NCBI GenBank assembly: GCA_025459365.1
Contig: JALOQR010000009.1
Coordinates: 1 to 37,263 of the forward strand
DNA: 37,263 bases
Direction of reading: 5' to 3'
From: Fimbriiglobus sp.
Lineage (GTDB): Bacteria; Planctomycetota; Planctomycetia; Gemmatales; Gemmataceae
Part shown: piece after piece, positions 13,324 to 20,198 of the stretch
How positions within the stretch are numbered: position 1 is the first letter of the stretch
Layout of the letters: every line of letters begins with the position of its first letter
Notes under the pieces: model-generated
Database searches by the model: none
What the model saw: the letters and a program-made list of their open reading frames with translations, nothing else
What the model was told of the DNA's origin: nothing
Translations under genes and position numbers: made by a program

Positions 13324-15276
13324 ATGCGCTCTGCCCGACTGCTGCCATCGGTCGGTTTGTTCGCCGTGATGCTGACCATCGTCACCGCCAACGCACAGGA
13401 CCCGCCACCGGCCAAAGCGGAGCCGAAGAAGGAAACCAAGCCCGACCCCCGTGTGGTGGCCCAGCAACTCGCCGACAAAAAGGCTCTGGACTCGGCCGGG
13501 CTGAAAACCGACGACGTCGCCGGGTTGATCGGCCACCTGAAGAACCGCACCCTTTCGACCGAGCAGGTGGGCAAAATCACCTCTCTGGTGCAGAAAATGC
13601 ATGCCGACGCTCCATTCGACGAACGCATTGCCGCCCAGGAAGAGGTGCTGAAAATTGGCGGGCAGGCCGCTGATGTGCTGCGGAGGGAGGCAAAGGAGAA
13701 TCCCGATGCCGAGATCCGCTTCCGGGCGTGGGACACCCTCCGGCGACTCACCCAGGAGAAGCAAAGCGGGCCAGAGTTGACGGCGGCGGTGGTGCGGGCA
13801 TTGCGTAGTGTGCGGTCGGACGAGGTCGCCCCGGCACTTCTCGCCTATCTCCCGCTGGCCGACGGGCCGGCACTGGCCGACGCCATTCAGGAGGCGGTGA
13901 CAGCCAACGCCGGAACAGATGGCAAGCCGTCGCCGGCCGTGGTGAAGGCACTCGATGATCCAAGCCCGCTCACCCGGCAAGTGGCGGCCGTGGCCCTGGC
14001 GTCCGGCGGCACCTCCGCCCAGCGGGTCCGCTTCCCGTCGGCTTATCCCAAACTGCTCGAAATCGCCAAATCGGACCGAGAACACGCGGTACGGTTCGCC
14101 GTGACGAAGGCGCTTCTCCTCGATGCTCGCGAGAAGCAGGCGGTGGCCGCCCTCATCGACCTGCTCCCGGGCATGACACGCGGGCAGTCGTGGCAAGCCG
14201 AGGAGTTGCTTGCCCAGGTGGCCGGGAAAGACAGCCCCAAAGAACGATGCAAACACCTCCGCGACCCATCCAACCCCACCCGTGAATCGCAGGCGAGCAA
14301 GGAGTCCCGCACCAAGTGCCGCGATGCATGGAAAGCGTGGTGGGACAAGGCATCGGCCGCCACCGATCTGAACAAGGTCGATCTCCAGTTGACCGTCAAG
14401 GGTGAGTTGGTGGCCGTCAGCCAGAGTTGGGCCAACATGCAACAGGTCCACCTGATCGAATACGGTGCCGACGAGAAAGAGAAGGGGCGGAGTACCTTCC
14501 CAAACAATTCCGGCAACTTGTTCGACGCCGCCATCCGCGACGATGGCATCATCGTGACTATGGACCAGTACAACAACCAGATTCAACTCCGCGACACCTC
14601 TGGCAAAGTCACGAAAGTGTGGCAAGTCAAGGACGCCGCCGCTGCCCGGTTCGGCTTCCAGCCCCGCGGCATGGAACTGCTCGACAACGGCCACCTGATC
14701 GCCTACCACCAGAACGGCTTCACCGAGTTCGATAAAGATGGCAAACAGGTCATTGCCTATGCCCGCCCAGAAGTGAACAAGGGCCAGCCGAGAAACGATC
14801 TGTGGGGCGGGGTGCGAATGAAGAACGGAGAGACGGTGGTACTGATCCTCAACCAGAACCAGGGGGAGTTGATCGTCCTCGATGCCAAGGGGAAGGAACT
14901 GGCTGATCGCAAGCCGGTGAAACTGCCCGGCCAGCCGTATTACCGCAACACTCTCATCCAGACGGGCGACGACAAGGTCATGCTCTACGACCAGAACAAC
15001 AACCGCATGCAGGAGATCGATCTGAAGACGGGCAAGGTCGATGCGGCCAAGTGGAGCGGGCTGAACAGCCCGATGAGCATCCAGCGGTTGCCGAACGGCA
15101 ACCTCCTCTTCGCCGAGTATAACCGGCTCAGCGAACGGGCGGTGGACGGGTCGGAGGTGTGGAGCACTACCAACCGCGACACCTCGGGCAATTCGCAGTT
15201 CCTCCGGACCTCACTTCGCGCGCCCCTGTCACCACGCCCGCCAGTCTTTCGTCACCCGATACACCCCCACCCGTAA
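13324..15276 (+). CDS. secreted HEAT-repeat and beta-propeller protein
   Basis: The 650-residue product begins with a signal peptide (MRSARLLPSVGLFAVMLTI...ANA-QD), then a Pro/Lys-rich stretch. Residues about 60-330 are helical and HEAT-like (AVRFAVTKALLLDAREKQAVAALIDLL). A propeller-like part follows from about 350 (GNLFDAAIRDDGIIVTMDQYNNQIQLRDTSGKV, then repeated GxxxVxDxxxNRxxExD motifs), similar to NHL/PQQ-like repeats. No enzymatic motif is seen. The last 25-30 residues (SLRAPLSPRPP onward) look unrelated to the propeller and are partly read from the 3' end of the convergent gene, which it overlaps by 48 bp. The natural C-terminus may have been lost. Function unknown; probably periplasmic. 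Confidence 0.85.
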   Translation: MRSARLLPSVGLFAVMLTIVTANAQDPPPAKAEPKKETKPDPRVVAQQLADKKALDSAGLKTDDVAGLIGHLKNRTLSTEQVGKITSLVQKMHADAPFDERIAAQEEVLKIGGQAADVLRREAKENPDAEIRFRAWDTLRRLTQEKQSGPELTAAVVRALRSVRSDEVAPALLAYLPLADGPALADAIQEAVTANAGTDGKPSPAVVKALDDPSPLTRQVAAVALASGGTSAQRVRFPSAYPKLLEIAKSDREHAVRFAVTKALLLDAREKQAVAALIDLLPGMTRGQSWQAEELLAQVAGKDSPKERCKHLRDPSNPTRESQASKESRTKCRDAWKAWWDKASAATDLNKVDLQLTVKGELVAVSQSWANMQQVHLIEYGADEKEKGRSTFPNNSGNLFDAAIRDDGIIVTMDQYNNQIQLRDTSGKVTKVWQVKDAAAARFGFQPRGMELLDNGHLIAYHQNGFTEFDKDGKQVIAYARPEVNKGQPRNDLWGGVRMKNGETVVLILNQNQGELIVLDAKGKELADRKPVKLPGQPYYRNTLIQTGDDKVMLYDQNNNRMQEIDLKTGKVDAAKWSGLNSPMSIQRLPNGNLLFAEYNRLSERAVDGSEVWSTTNRDTSGNSQFLRTSLRAPLSPRPPVFRHPIHPHP

Positions 15277-16929
15277 CCGTGGGTGATCTCGCCCACGGAA
15301 TGGGTACGCCCCACCGCCATACATCGGCGGGATGGTTTGGGCGCTCAGCCCATCGCGCCACTCCAGCACCGTCACCTCTTCCAACCTCAGTTCCGCCGGG
15401 GGAAACTCCGGATCGGGTGGATGGGGGCGATAGAAGCCGCCATCCCGTGGCACCAGGGGCAGCACCAGCCAGTCGCCGGCTTTCAAGAGTGTCGTGCGAT
15501 CAGTTTTCCCATCCCACTGCGACACCACCGGCCTCATCCCGGCGCGTTCGCAGTAGTATTGCCACCCCCAGTGACCGGTGTACCACACCGTCGGCCCCGG
15601 TTCCATCTTCACCACCGCCGCTGCCCGCTCGGCCAGCACCTTCTCCGCCTGGGCGTCCCAGCAGTCGATGGCCCACACCAGCACCCCCAACCCAACGGCA
15701 AATGCCACCCCCCACCGTGGCACCGCCGGCCTCCCCTGCCCCAGTTTCGCCACCAGATGGAACAGCAACACCGCCACCGCCAGGCAGACGCCAATCACGC
15801 GGCGAGCGGCCGGGAACGGCGTCATGCCAAGCATGCCGAGAGTTTCGATGAACACCCACCCGACAAGAAACAGAGTGTCGGCATCGGCCACCCGCTTCCA
15901 CACTCCCCGCCCGAGGCCCATGACGACCGTGACGGCCACGGATACCCCGCCAAGCCCGAACACAATGAAGGGCAGATCGTACCGCGGGCCGAGTGGCTGA
16001 GTTGCGGAGTACGGCAGCACCAGCAGGCACGCCACGGCGACCATGAACACCGCCACGGCCACGACCCGCACCCACCGCGGCCAACCGATGCCAGCCGCTG
16101 CGGTGACCGACACCCCCGCCGCCAACCCGCCGAACTGCCCGAACAGCGGTTGGGCGAACGCAAATCGCTCGGCCAGTTTCTCCCACAGATCACCCGCCCC
16201 GGCCCCACTGCTCTCCCGGAAGTGTCGGAGGAAGTGAGACTCGCCATGAACAGCGACGAGGTACTGCTCCCACCCCCAACAGATCGCAGCAGCCACCACC
16301 AGAGCCGCGATCAGAGCCATGAGCGCCCACACCGAGTGCGGCCGACCGAGGCGGGTGAAGGCGTAGGCCACCAGCACCGGGGGCACCGCGAGCATGCTGT
16401 ACTTGGTCTGGACGGCAAGCGCAGCGCACAACCCGGCGAGCGGCACCAGCCACCACCGGCGGGCATCGCATCCGTGCATGAACAGTGCCACCGCCGCTGC
16501 ACCGAGGGCGAGCGCTGGTACGTCGAGCATGACACTGAACAGCGGCAGCACGGCTGGCGACAGGCAGAAGGCGATCGTTCCTTCGGACTCCACGCCGGGG
16601 GCAAAACGCCGCAACAGCGAACGTACTGCCAGGCAGAGAATCCAGGCGAACGGAAAGAGCCAGAGTTTCAACAGGAAAAGGTGTTCGCCGAACAAGGCGA
16701 TGCCAGCGGCCAACCAGTACGGTAGCACCGGCGGGAGGAGGATCTCCATCGCCGGTTGTGGGCACCAGTACCAGAACAGTTCGAATCCGTAGGGGTGGAG
16801 TGGGTCGGTTGCGAGGTGGCGGGCGAACAGCAGGTACGCGGTGTCGTCGACCACTGCGGGCTTCACGGCGTTCAGCAGGGTGACGACCACCGCGAGGAAT
16901 AGCGGCAGGCGGTGGGTACGCCACGACAT
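15229..16929 (-). CDS. membrane glycosyltransferase-like protein (GT39/ArnT-like)
   Basis: The 566-residue protein has about ten to twelve predicted membrane helices and a soluble C-terminal domain (about 430-566). The first periplasmic loop has the paired acids VVDDTAYLLFARHL, at the place where GT-C enzymes of the GT39/GT83 kind keep catalytic Asp/Glu. The second helix group has LPPVLPYWLAAGIALFGEH. These enzymes move sugars from polyprenyl-phosphate donors onto lipids or proteins at the outer face of the membrane; the acceptor is unknown here. It is the last gene of a minus-strand run with SDR, J-like and GrpE-like genes, 40 bp after the GrpE-like stop. The ATG at 16929 has a GGAG about 10 bp upstream. 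Confidence 0.82.
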   Translation of the reverse strand: MSWRTHRLPLFLAVVVTLLNAVKPAVVDDTAYLLFARHLATDPLHPYGFELFWYWCPQPAMEILLPPVLPYWLAAGIALFGEHLFLLKLWLFPFAWILCLAVRSLLRRFAPGVESEGTIAFCLSPAVLPLFSVMLDVPALALGAAAVALFMHGCDARRWWLVPLAGLCAALAVQTKYSMLAVPPVLVAYAFTRLGRPHSVWALMALIAALVVAAAICWGWEQYLVAVHGESHFLRHFRESSGAGAGDLWEKLAERFAFAQPLFGQFGGLAAGVSVTAAAGIGWPRWVRVVAVAVFMVAVACLLVLPYSATQPLGPRYDLPFIVFGLGGVSVAVTVVMGLGRGVWKRVADADTLFLVGWVFIETLGMLGMTPFPAARRVIGVCLAVAVLLFHLVAKLGQGRPAVPRWGVAFAVGLGVLVWAIDCWDAQAEKVLAERAAAVVKMEPGPTVWYTGHWGWQYYCERAGMRPVVSQWDGKTDRTTLLKAGDWLVLPLVPRDGGFYRPHPPDPEFPPAELRLEEVTVLEWRDGLSAQTIPPMYGGGAYPFRGRDHPRLRVGVYRVTKDWRAW

Positions 16930-16969: not shown

Positions 16970-17803
16970 CTACCGGGCGACTTTCACCAGTGCGAACCGC
17001 ACCACTGCTCCGTTGCGGGTGTACCCGCGGCGGACCTCCTCCACCACCGTACCGCTGTTCTCACCGCCGACCACCTCCACCACCTCCATCAACTCCGGGT
17101 CGAACGCACGGCCGACAGTCGGGATCGCCCGCAACCCCGCCCCCTCCAGCGCTTTTTCCACCCGCCGCAAGCTCATGGTGTAGCCATCGGCCAGCCCAGC
17201 GAGCATTGGTGAGAGCTTGGCCGTCGCCTCGGCCGCGGTGGCGGATCGCTGGTGGTCTGCCGTCACCGCTTCCTTCGCCCAGTCGGTGAGTACGGCCGAC
17301 CTCCCGAAGAGTTTGCCGAGAAACCCTGTGGTCACCACCGGCGGGTCGGGCAACGCAGCCGCCGATAACTTGGCCAGCAGCGGTTCGACACCGGCTCGCA
17401 CCGATTCGATCTGCCGTTGCGACGCCGAGAGGGCATCGGCGATCTCGATCAGCCCCTTCACCAGCGGGGCGGTCGAGTCGGACGCCGGCGGTGGGGGAGC
17501 GGGCTTCGGGGCGGCGGCGAGTTGCTGCACGGCCGCGGCTGCTTGTTCGGTGGCCGTGCGGGTGGCCTTCGTCTGTAGGTTCACGTCGTGCCGCAGGGCG
17601 GTGAACTGGGCGACTACCGCCGACAGGTCGAACCGCTCGGGTAGGGTTTCCGGTGCAGGCGGCGGGGAGAGCAGGTTTTCCAGGTAGGTCCGGAAGTCGG
17701 CCAGTACGGCGTCGATGTGGTCGGCAGTCAGGTACCCGGCTTGGCGGGGGTGGTTGCTGCCGTGAGTTGATCCAGGCTCGGTCGCGGGCGGGGCGTCGTG
17801 CAT
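16970..17803 (-). CDS. GrpE-like nucleotide exchange factor
   Basis: The 277-residue protein has a helical N-terminal part with a Pro-rich linker (about 100-108) and a C-terminal domain that matches the GrpE beta domain: LEGAGLRAIPTVGRAFDP, ELMEVVEVV and GTVVEEVRRGYTRNG. GrpE releases ADP from Hsp70 (DnaK). It is longer than classic GrpE (about 190), with an extended N-terminal region. The ATG at 17803 is preceded by GAGGA at a good distance, and both lie inside the upstream J-like gene, so the 76-bp overlap is probably real. Its pairing with a J-like protein suggests a dedicated Hsp70 helper set; no Hsp70 is in the window. Confidence 0.85.
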   Translation of the reverse strand: MHDAPPATEPGSTHGSNHPRQAGYLTADHIDAVLADFRTYLENLLSPPPAPETLPERFDLSAVVAQFTALRHDVNLQTKATRTATEQAAAAVQQLAAAPKPAPPPPASDSTAPLVKGLIEIADALSASQRQIESVRAGVEPLLAKLSAAALPDPPVVTTGFLGKLFGRSAVLTDWAKEAVTADHQRSATAAEATAKLSPMLAGLADGYTMSLRRVEKALEGAGLRAIPTVGRAFDPELMEVVEVVGGENSGTVVEEVRRGYTRNGAVVRFALVKVAR

Positions 17804-18033
17804 TCGGCTTCCTCGATGATCGCCTCGATGGTGTTTTCGCTCCCCTGCTCGAAGAGTTTGTATTTCACCCGTGCATCCAGGGTGCGGAGTTTCTCGTAAG
17901 CCGCTCGCACCGCCGCGAACTTCTCCGGATGCTGTTCCGGCGTGTATCGGAGCGTGAATTCGAGATACCGCTTGCGGACTGTTGCATCGTCGGCGTCTGG
18001 CGTCAATTCGAGCACGGTGTACGGGTCGGGCAT
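17728..18033 (-). CDS. J-domain-like protein without canonical HPD
   Basis: The 101-residue protein starts with a J-domain-like fold: PYTVLELTPDADDATVRKRY (helices I-II), then HPEKFAAVRAAYEKLRT (helix III). In J proteins an HPD tripeptide sits between helices II and III and is needed to stimulate Hsp70. Here the position reads YTPEQ, so T31-P32-E33 replaces H-P-D. The C-terminal 40 residues have no recognised domain. It starts 3 bp after the SDR stop codon and overlaps the GrpE-like gene by 76 bp, so the three genes are surely co-transcribed. It may be a J-like protein that binds without activating, or one with divergent chemistry. Confidence 0.8.
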   Translation of the reverse strand: MPDPYTVLELTPDADDATVRKRYLEFTLRYTPEQHPEKFAAVRAAYEKLRTLDARVKYKLFEQGSENTIEAIIEEAECTTPRPRPSLDQLTAATTPAKPGT

Positions 18034-18036
18034 GGG

Positions 18037-18933
18037 TCAGGTTCCGGGCGAGCGGGGAGCGTCGGCCCCCTGGTTCTGATACTCACCACCCGCGTGCTGA
18101 CGTAGGCCGTTCGACTGCCGGGCGGCGATCTCGTCCTTGAAGAGTTCACGGATTTTACGCCGGGCGAAGAACTCGAACACCCACGGCACGAAGCGATTGA
18201 CCAACACGAGCAGTTTGCCTCGCGGGGTGAGCGTGACTTCGGGGCGGTCGGCGGCGATGGCGTTGAAGGTGGCAACGGCCACTTGCTCCGGTGTGCTTCC
18301 CCGCTGGTGATCGAGAGAGATACGGGCCGACCGTTCGAGCATGTTCTGCGAGAAGTTGGTTCGCGTCAGCCCAGGGTTGACGACCAACACCCCGATGCCC
18401 TCCTTGCTCAACTCGGCCCGAATGGCATCGCTCAGCCCCTGGATGGCAAACTTGCTGGCCGAGTACAGCGACCGTGCCGGATATCCGCGCCGACCAAACA
18501 CCGAGCTGATGTTCACGATCAACGGCCGATCTCCACGGCGGAGAAGCGGCAACCCCTCGCGGATCATCTCGCCGGTGGCGAACACGTTCACCTCGAAGAT
18601 CTGCCGGAGCGTCTCGGGCTTCGTCTCGATGAAGTGCCCGGTCGCCCCGATGCCGGCGTTGTTGATGAGGATATCCAGCCCTCCGAATTCCTGCTCGGCG
18701 GCGGCGAACATGGCATCGCGGCCGGTGGGGTCGCACACGTCGGCGACCACGGTGACGATCGTTCCGCCAGCCGCACGAATCTCGCGGGCCAGTAGGTCGA
18801 GCAAATCCTTGGAGCGGGCCGCGGCTACCACCTGGCAACCGCGGCGGGCCGCCTCGACTGCCAAGGCGTAGCCGATCCCCTGCGACGCGCCGGTGACGAG
18901 CACCCGTTTCCCGGTCAACTCCCGCCGCGGCAT
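18037..18933 (-). CDS. short-chain dehydrogenase/reductase
   Basis: The 298-residue enzyme is a classical SDR with a Rossmann fold. Visible motifs: cofactor-binding TGASQGIG (residues 14-21), NNAG near 89, Ser in VNISSVFG, and the catalytic pair YSASK near 155. Asp-Val in VADVCD suits adenine binding. An Arg after the glycine motif (AAARSKD) suggests NADPH preference. The C-terminal tail (about 230-298) is basic with a hydrophobic segment (LVLVNRFVPWVFEFFARRK), possibly membrane associated, as in lipid-modifying SDRs. Substrate unknown. I prefer ATG 18933, which has GGTGGA upstream, over GTG 18942. First gene of the SDR - J-like - GrpE-like - glycosyltransferase run. Confidence 0.92.
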   Translation of the reverse strand: MPRRELTGKRVLVTGASQGIGYALAVEAARRGCQVVAAARSKDLLDLLAREIRAAGGTIVTVVADVCDPTGRDAMFAAAEQEFGGLDILINNAGIGATGHFIETKPETLRQIFEVNVFATGEMIREGLPLLRRGDRPLIVNISSVFGRRGYPARSLYSASKFAIQGLSDAIRAELSKEGIGVLVVNPGLTRTNFSQNMLERSARISLDHQRGSTPEQVAVATFNAIAADRPEVTLTPRGKLLVLVNRFVPWVFEFFARRKIRELFKDEIAARQSNGLRQHAGGEYQNQGADAPRSPGT

Positions 18934-18951
18934 AAAGTCCACCCCATGAGC

Positions 18952-19016: not shown

Positions 19017-20198
19017 ATGTTCGAATTCTTCAACGCGACCCTCATCCTGCCCGATGGGCTGATGCCCCAGGCGGCGTTCTCGGTCCGCAACGGCCGGTTC
19101 ACAAATTTCGGCTACCCCCGCAAGACCAGTATGGAGGCGATCAACCTCGGCGGGCGATACGTTGCGCCGGGGTTCGTGGATCTGCACGTTCATGGCGGAG
19201 ACGGAGCCGACTTCATGGACCTGACGGCCGACGCCTTCCGCACCGTCTGCCGCTGCCACGCCCGCCACGGCACCACCACCCTCACCCCCACCAGCACGGT
19301 CGGCACCCGCGCACAATACAAGAAGTTCCTCCAACTGAACGCCGAACTGACCAACGCCGACACGGGCGGGGCCAGGATCGTCGGCGGACACCTCTACGGC
19401 CCCTACTTCCATCCGGCTGCGAAGGGGTGCCACCCAACCGCCGACTTCCTCACCCCCGATCCAGCCCAGGACGACGAACTACTCGCCTTCGCCGGGAAGG
19501 GGCTTAAGACCCTCACCGTCGCCCCCGAAACTCCCGGTACCGACCGCCTGGCGAAGGCGGCCAAGGATAAAGGAGTGCTCGTGACGGCCGGGCATACCTA
19601 CGCCACCTTCGAGCAACTCGAAGCGGCCGTGGGATGGGGGGTGAAGCACGTCGATCACTTGTTCTGTGCGATGTCGGATCGGGCACGCTTGCGGCAAGAG
19701 CAGCCGTACCCCATGCGGGCCGGGGTGATGGAAGGTACGCTCTTCCACGATCAACTCACCACCGAGGTGATCGCCGACGGCGTTCATCTGTCGCCGGGGC
19801 TGCTGAAGTTCGCCTACAAGCTCAAGGGCCCCGACAAGCTCGCGCTCGTTACCGACGCCATGCGGGCAGTCGATCGGCCCGACGGAGAATATTGGTTCGG
19901 GCCGACCGACTTCGGCGAGTTGGTGCGGCGGAAAGGGGAGGCCGGGCTGACACTCGACACAAAAGGGCTAGCGTCGGGAGTCATGGGCATGGATCACTGT
20001 GTGCGGACGATGCTCAAGGCGACCGGGGCCCCGCTTCCCGACGTGGTCCGCATGGCGAGCCTGACCCCGGCGAAAATCCTCGGCATCGAACGCGAGACCG
20101 GCAGCCTGGAAGTGGGCAAACGGGCCGACTTCCTGGTGCTGACCGAAGATTTGCAGGTAGAGCGTGTGTTCGTCGGCGGTGTGAAAGTGGTGGGGTGA
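19017..20198 (+). CDS. nagA: N-acetylglucosamine-6-phosphate deacetylase-like amidohydrolase
   Basis: NagA removes acetate from GlcNAc-6-phosphate in amino-sugar and cell-wall recycling. The 393-residue protein has the amidohydrolase layout: a small beta domain, HVHGG (His57, His59), GHTYAT (His193), HVDHLFCAMS (His214), the catalytic Asp280 in LVTDAM, and the closing GSLEVGKRADFLVL. The usual metal-binding Glu in HLEGP is replaced by Tyr127 in HLYGPYF, followed by KGCH where KGAH/KGTH is usual. The enzyme may use a single metal site or be specialised for another N-acetyl sugar. The ATG at 19017 gives full length. No nagB or kinase is next to it. Confidence 0.85.
   Translation: MFEFFNATLILPDGLMPQAAFSVRNGRFTNFGYPRKTSMEAINLGGRYVAPGFVDLHVHGGDGADFMDLTADAFRTVCRCHARHGTTTLTPTSTVGTRAQYKKFLQLNAELTNADTGGARIVGGHLYGPYFHPAAKGCHPTADFLTPDPAQDDELLAFAGKGLKTLTVAPETPGTDRLAKAAKDKGVLVTAGHTYATFEQLEAAVGWGVKHVDHLFCAMSDRARLRQEQPYPMRAGVMEGTLFHDQLTTEVIADGVHLSPGLLKFAYKLKGPDKLALVTDAMRAVDRPDGEYWFGPTDFGELVRRKGEAGLTLDTKGLASGVMGMDHCVRTMLKATGAPLPDVVRMASLTPAKILGIERETGSLEVGKRADFLVLTEDLQVERVFVGGVKVVG

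Follow-up and report, generated by a model that had tools for sequence, protein, structure and literature searches.

A His-less J-like protein and a GrpE-like protein as probable partners of a distinct Hsp70 in Planctomycetota and other bacteria

The window analysed here is a stretch of 37,263 nucleotides of Fimbriiglobus sp. DNA (contig C25) from a 5.0-Mb genome that is assembled in 471 contigs and is 89.8% complete. It carries a short gene for a J-like protein followed by a gene for a GrpE-like protein, with these features:

18037-18942, minus strand: SDR oxidoreductase gene, directly upstream of the J-like gene on the same strand and ending three bases before its start
17728-18033, minus strand: J-like gene (open reading frame), 101 aa, with TPE at the HPD site
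17935-17943, minus strand: codons ACG-CCG-GAA for Thr31-Pro32-Glu33 in the J-like gene sequence
17810-17814, minus strand: GAGGA within the J-like gene, six bases before the GrpE-like ATG at 17803
16970-17803, minus strand: GrpE-like gene (open reading frame), 277 aa
15229-16929, minus strand: gene for a membrane protein, tentatively a glycosyltransferase, next downstream of the GrpE-like gene

The two reading frames overlap by 76 bp (17728-17803, minus strand). This overlap, the TPE at the HPD site and the internal GAGGA had all been described in the original prediction and were confirmed from the sequence. The GAGGA is probably the ribosome-binding site of the GrpE-like gene, and its bases are also the codons for Glu-Glu of the J-like tail. 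The J-like protein scored 33.9 bits against the Pfam DnaJ family, above the gathering cut-off of 27.8, and its Thr31-Pro32-Glu33 aligns with His33-Pro34-Asp35 of E. coli DnaJ. Its AlphaFold model (mean pLDDT 84.9) has J domain helices I-IV at residues 4-7, 16-29, 36-49 and 52-62 together with two tail helices, and matched the DnaK-bound J domain of 5nro (5nro_B) with a Z of 9.1 and an rmsd of 1.4 over 57 residues (VIA-align). The best Foldseek match of the model had an E of 0.0034 and a probability of 1.00. With TPE instead of the HPD tripeptide the protein is not a canonical J-domain protein; a clear J domain with HPD non-conservatively replaced places it among the Type IV or J-like proteins. 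The second protein scored 66.7 bits against Pfam GrpE (cut-off 25.8) and at best 43.9 bits against the NCBIfam GrpE equivalog, below the cut-off of 164, and is therefore named GrpE-like and not housekeeping GrpE. Its AlphaFold model (mean pLDDT 83.1) shows long N-terminal helices and a C-terminal GrpE beta domain, and the first twelve Foldseek matches were all GrpE, e.g. 1dkg, 4ani and 9bls.

The SDR neighbour named in the original prediction is present, and the glycosyltransferase label is tentative since the 15229-16929 protein scored only 18.4 bits against PMT_2 (cut-off 26.1). In the same-genus genome G003 the gene order is amidohydrolase / SDR-J-GrpE-Hsp70, the last three genes being referred to below as the trio or triad, and the window keeps all of these except the Hsp70; the 15229-16929 gene stands where the Hsp70 stands in G003. 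Among the 40 other loci, the SDR gene adjoins the pair in G003 only and no match to the 15229-16929 gene was found beside the pair, and both were rejected as members of the system. The amidohydrolase gene of the window (19017-20198, plus strand) is divergent from the SDR gene, which it adjoins in G003 too.

The J-like gene was searched for in 119 related genomes and was found in 43 by the criteria used, comprising 41 tabulated loci and the genomes G080 and G082. A GrpE-like gene lies directly behind it on the same strand in 38 of the 41 loci, and the contig ends before any GrpE-like gene in the other three (G014, G063 and G015), so that the pair is intact in 38 of the 38 loci where it is visible. 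The J-like motif of all 41 relatives is without His and reads [P/S/T/A]P[E/D], with an invariant proline and Glu or Asp throughout (PPE in 15, SPE in 15, TPE in 7, PPD in 3 and APE in 1). The original prediction was to be given up if close homologues had HPD and the pair was not conserved; with His in 0 of 41 relatives and the pair kept, the homologues argue the other way. An HPD shifted by the alignment was considered and rejected, as rows with 'HPPD' or 'HPPE' (e.g. G024 and G085) put His at the Tyr32 position and Pro at 33. The other J proteins of the same genome (on C294 and C249) keep HPD.

More distant loci, obtained by a contig scan, were without His in 51 of 51 cases and had Pro34 and Asp/Glu35 in all, although the scan pattern accepted only P, S or T in place of His and the count is thereby biased. 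The search of the 119 genomes, the phylum-wide search described next and the GrpE-anchored control are free of this bias. A phylum-wide search with a J profile built from His-less rows gave matches in 308 of 392 genomes, most of those listed being ordinary or long J proteins, and only the best loci were read. These best 29 loci besides the window, at least seven of which encode long J-like proteins, were all without His and all with Pro34 and Asp/Glu35, and the trio was in order within flanks of about 1.5 kb in 16 and not in 13. The three sets of J-like rows (41, 51 and 29) overlap with each other in the genomes G113, G080 and G082, and their counts are not additive. In two steps of the analysis, 56 of 79 J rows and 43 of 50 GrpE rows were taken in. 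Position 33 is P, S, T, A, R or G across the J-like rows, and conservation is concentrated on the Hsp70-facing surface of the J domain (P34, D/E35, Y25, R22 and F47). A GrpE-anchored control was used because it avoids choosing loci by the J motif: the GrpE-like profile was run against 294 genomes of the phylum, and for the 30 best loci the upstream region was read. Canonical GrpE genes with an upstream DnaJ of 350-400 aa had HPD in 16 of 16 readable cases, and the triad-type J frames (102-285 aa) had His in 0 of 9, window included. The 29 loci besides the window thus comprise 16 canonical loci with HPD, 8 triad loci without His and 5 with no readable motif (L237 without the motif region; L242, L247, L251 and L257 without a J gene in reach). 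In the comparison of one genome pair (G000 and G003; dS 0.8-1.0), dN/dS was 0.16 for the J-like gene, 0.16 for the Hsp70, 0.34 for the SDR and 0.46 for the GrpE-like gene, the N-terminal half of which is variable. Judged from these ratios, the J-like and Hsp70 genes are under purifying selection.

A GrpE-like start inside the J gene, with GAGGA and then ATG, is present in 27 of the 41 relatives. The ATG of these 27 loci lies 58-85 bp ahead of the J gene end, and the GAGGA and ATG bases encode Glu-Glu/Asp and Cys of the J tail. The other 14 loci use a start codon at a 4-bp overlap, which is ATG in 10 and GTG in 4, whereas the codon at this position is never ATG in the 27 internal-start loci (Fisher p 9e-7, a value that ignores relatedness). 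The recurrence of the internal start indicates that the internal GAGGA site is real and conserved, and this start may couple the translation of the two proteins. The tail Cys occurs in 27 of 27 internal-start loci and 0 of 14 others; it was rejected as a functional residue because it tracks the internal start and is explained by the overlapping ATG.

The original prediction described the pair as being without its Hsp70 and proposed that it might serve a special Hsp70 or be a decoy module. The first statement holds at this locus and not generally, as an Hsp70 gene lies directly behind the GrpE-like gene in 31 of the 41 loci, including that of G003. The proposed look for DnaK paralogues in the genome gave an orthologue on another contig, so that a special Hsp70 is now well supported:

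C408:1008-2984: own-genome orthologue of the partner Hsp70, 658 aa, 81% identical to the Hsp70 of G003

About 1 kb of unrelated sequence lies upstream of this gene, and its place on a different contig means that the operon is split in this genome. The pair and the Hsp70 are apart, with both present, in eight genomes (G000, G006, G008, G015, G024, G034, G052 and G063), which fall within at least two genera that also have intact operons. The triad Hsp70, called at ≥53% identity and ≥533 bits, was found in 46 of the 119 genomes, namely in 42 of the 43 J-like genomes vs 4 of the 76 others (both 42, J only 1, Hsp70 only 4, neither 72). The contig ends at or just past the Hsp70 or GrpE gene in the four Hsp70-only genomes, and G014 is the sole J-like genome among the 43 searched in which no triad Hsp70 was found. 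A dedicated partnership of the pair with the triad Hsp70 is, on these patterns of sequence and gene order, very likely.

Further Hsp70-like genes occur in the same genome. The protein on C454 (L016:7210-8835), a divergent Hsp70 of about 540 aa on a very long branch, has Asp at R167 and at N170 and was rejected as the partner for lack of these two residues. On C194 (L015), an HscA-like Hsp70 adjoins an IscA-like protein and an HscB-like one that has HPD, and together they make up an ordinary iron-sulfur Hsp70 system. The genome also encodes three more large Hsp70-like ATPases (L006, L007 and L008; frames of 680-981 aa), for which the matches were partial only.

The partner Hsp70 misses the NCBIfam DnaK equivalog cut-offs (533.9 vs 648 and 524.4 vs 822.55 bits) and scored 422.0 bits against NCBIfam HscA, below the cut-off of 708.55. 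In a quick tree of 47 rows without bootstrap, in which HscC has a long branch, all 33 triad Hsp70 rows fall into a single clade (SH-aLRT 99), separate from DnaK plus HscA, and E. coli HscC forms a further group with seven planctomycete Hsp70s (SH-aLRT 100). The trio thus appears to define an Hsp70 lineage outside the DnaK/HscA/HscC scheme. The comparison of single residues covered 30 + 42 Hsp70 rows, with G072 and fragments dropped and L091-L119 dropped as repeats of set A. In E. coli DnaK numbering, R167, N170, E217, D393, P419, K70, T199 and E171 are present in 72 of 72 triad Hsp70s and L391 in 71. In the DnaK-DnaJ contacts described in PMC8215388, H33 bonds to L391, P34 packs on P419 and D35 bonds to R167. 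With these Hsp70 residues and the Pro and Asp/Glu of the J-like proteins all kept, both partners retain what the Pro and Asp contacts require, and the His alone has been lost. The loop at D208-D211 (E209/D211) is four residues shorter in the triad Hsp70 than in DnaK, and helix II of the J-like protein carries Leu in place of K26 and, in most rows, Glu, Gln or Ala in place of R27; these changes look like matching losses in the two partners. The linker of the triad Hsp70 reads G-x-V-L-V-D vs D-V-L-L-L-D. The loop that is deleted in HscA, given as the GrpE signature in PMC8215388, has its full length in 68 of 72 triad Hsp70s, which fits a dedicated GrpE. Most set-A triad Hsp70 tails end in a conserved LFYLED-type motif, unlike DnaK.

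The trio is widespread. The contig scan showed J-GrpE-Hsp70 in order in 67 of 80 loci of named genomes, these 80 loci being used for gene order and spread only, given the bias of the search pattern on His. Of the 13 not in order, nine have <1.5 kb left downstream, three belong to operons already known to be split, and at L164 the J protein is a different, long one. Carriers were found in Planctomycetota, Desulfobacterota, Acidobacteriota and Acetobacteraceae and include Limnoglobus roseus, Zavarzinella formosa, Singulisphaera acidiphila and Rhodopirellula solitaria as well as Paracraurococcus, Desulfobacterota and an Acidobacteria bin; labels of MAGs may be wrong, and the named isolates are firmer. 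A second GrpE was also present in 10 of 10 trio genomes searched. One Paracraurococcus triad Hsp70 copy is read in two frames (L160:3379-5507), and the other copy (L155) is intact. The triads of the MAGs Gsp477_bin66, Rs511_bin15 and Ncb351_bin65 (L143, L158 and L163) have more divergent J-like proteins. No description of the J-GrpE-Hsp70 trio was found in the literature searched; Barriot et al. (2020), the principal survey of J proteins in bacteria, which lies outside it, may discuss such proteins. The trio is new as a variant of the Hsp70-J-NEF machine.

The reading that is favoured here, and that is considered fairly probable, is that the J-like and GrpE-like proteins are the J partner and the NEF of a dedicated third Hsp70 machine, in which docking takes place through Pro and Asp/Glu without His. 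The Hsp70 gene normally stands behind J-GrpE and has moved to another contig in this genome. The J-like domain would dock at the usual J site of the triad Hsp70, i.e. the junction of NBD, linker and SBD-beta, with its invariant proline placed on P419 and its acidic residue on R167, and with no counterpart of the DnaJ histidine that bonds to L391 of the linker. Such docking would still support a His-independent ATPase cycle, and the GrpE-like protein would then exchange nucleotide on the same Hsp70. The parts of this reading differ in strength. Stimulation of the triad Hsp70 by the J-like protein without His has about even chances, and the broader proposal, that a widespread and complete bacterial Hsp70 system cycles its ATPase with a His-less J protein in which Pro and Asp/Glu suffice because linker and NBD have co-adapted, is a possibility rated somewhat short of even. 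HPD is regarded as obligatory and as the motif that defines J proteins. For a 2026 review (PMC13254874) it is 'enigmatic' whether deviations from it arose by accident or were selected, and the review asks if non-HPD proteins compete, recruit or act in another way. Here the deviation has persisted in several phyla, within a trio that includes a dedicated Hsp70 and NEF, and so is selected. According to the same review, Hsc70 can be stimulated by designed J analogues that have no HPD; these, together with the HPE of DjlC, argue for the existence of other solutions. With the exception of HPE, every replacement tested at the His or the Asp of HPD abolishes stimulation (PMC8215388 and PMC13254874), and in simulations DnaJ H33A binds DnaK and misses the stimulating state (PMC13012618), a result that calls for caution on His-independent triggering. 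Against the favoured reading are also the canonical HPD proteins of the same genome (C294 and C249), which could drive the triad Hsp70, the three genes that are no longer together here, and G014 with a J-like gene and no triad Hsp70 found. If the reading is true, a supposedly universal His is dispensable in nature. With small proteins and known docking residues, the question of non-HPD J proteins becomes directly testable in vitro with three purified proteins.

The J-like protein might instead bind the J site without triggering, and so tether, target or restrain the Hsp70, much as Pam16 acts in the mitochondrial import motor, with hydrolysis left to a canonical HPD protein or to substrate alone. 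Such a role agrees with P34 and an acidic residue 35 in all rows, with the receiving residues kept in the triad Hsp70, with HPD proteins of the same genome that could do the triggering, and with the nature of the lost residue, H33 being dispensable for binding and needed for triggering in the simulations of PMC13012618. However, there is no second J gene in the operon, a dedicated NEF would be expected of a full cycle more than of a static tether, and the variety of residues at position 33 means that no single replacement was selected, so that docking alone is regarded as unlikely, although it is a serious contender. The decoy of the original prediction, i.e. a J-like protein that competes with DnaJ on the main DnaK as an inhibitor, would explain a trigger residue lost from a kept J fold, but the pair is co-inherited with a different Hsp70 (42 of 43 genomes) whose J-docking residues are kept. 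Helix II is, moreover, without the basic K26 and R27 that meet the acidic loop of DnaK, the partner Hsp70 is without that loop, and no link of the pair to another Hsp70 as inhibitor was found; the decoy is very improbable. Still less probable is a J fold with a task unrelated to Hsp70, for example as a scaffold of the GrpE-like protein, beside which it would stand mainly through the overlapping frames. J and GrpE do stay together, with interlocked frames, in the eight genomes where the Hsp70 has left, but all eight retain the Hsp70, and conservation is centred on the residues of the J domain that face it. A decaying gene or a chance likeness, which the non-standard motif and the operon broken in this genome might suggest, is ruled out for practical purposes by the dN/dS of 0.16, a motif class common to every relative and the pair intact wherever visible.

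Several known systems resemble parts of the trio. The J-like protein resembles two E. coli J proteins, DjlB and DjlC, the genes of which are:

L217:213-1664: E. coli djlC, HPE, short II-III loop
L226:1916-3343: E. coli djlB, HPE, short II-III loop

Like the J-like protein, DjlB and DjlC have Glu at 35 and a short loop between helices II and III, with nothing inserted from P34 to F47; the J-like protein matches them ungapped and shows a six-residue gap vs DnaJ. Among six E. coli J proteins, DjlB gave the best match to the J-like family profile (39.9 bits). Both keep His, which is absent from the TPE of the J-like protein, and both are tail-anchored proteins of 475-483 aa according to PMC8215388, whereas the J-like protein has 101 aa. 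DjlB and DjlC work with a specialised Hsp70, as the J-like family would likewise do, and DjlC is reported in PMC8215388 to stimulate HscC. HscC is without the GrpE signature, and its place in the tree is with a second planctomycete Hsp70 clade and outside that of the triad Hsp70. Loop likeness and profile score, not a tree, suggest that the J-like family has a DjlB/C-type J domain from which His has been lost as well. The Hsp70s of that other planctomycete clade (L218-L224) have 581-601 aa, and their loci also hold J proteins of 482-865 aa with KPE, KPD or RPE at the HPD site, which indicates a second lineage without His.

Type IV or pseudo-J proteins such as Pam16 and DNAJB13 share with the J-like protein a recognisable J domain with HPD non-conservatively replaced; unlike it, they are without a dedicated operon Hsp70 and NEF, and Pam16 pairs with the HPD partner Pam18 (PMC13254874). 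In Myxococcus xanthus, a second GrpE (MXAN_6672) lies directly upstream of a second, specialised DnaK (MxDnaK2), a likeness to the trio in gene arrangement, and the account in PMC11019930 reports no adjoining J gene. A comparison can also be made with DnaK-DnaJ-GrpE, which has the same three-component logic; the residues for nucleotide, linker and J docking are retained in the triad Hsp70, as is the GrpE-signature loop. The trio differs from it in a J protein of about 100 aa without HPD and without G/F, zinc or substrate domains, in a GrpE with a divergent helical N-terminal half, and in an Hsp70 that scores under the NCBIfam DnaK cut-offs and forms a clade of its own.
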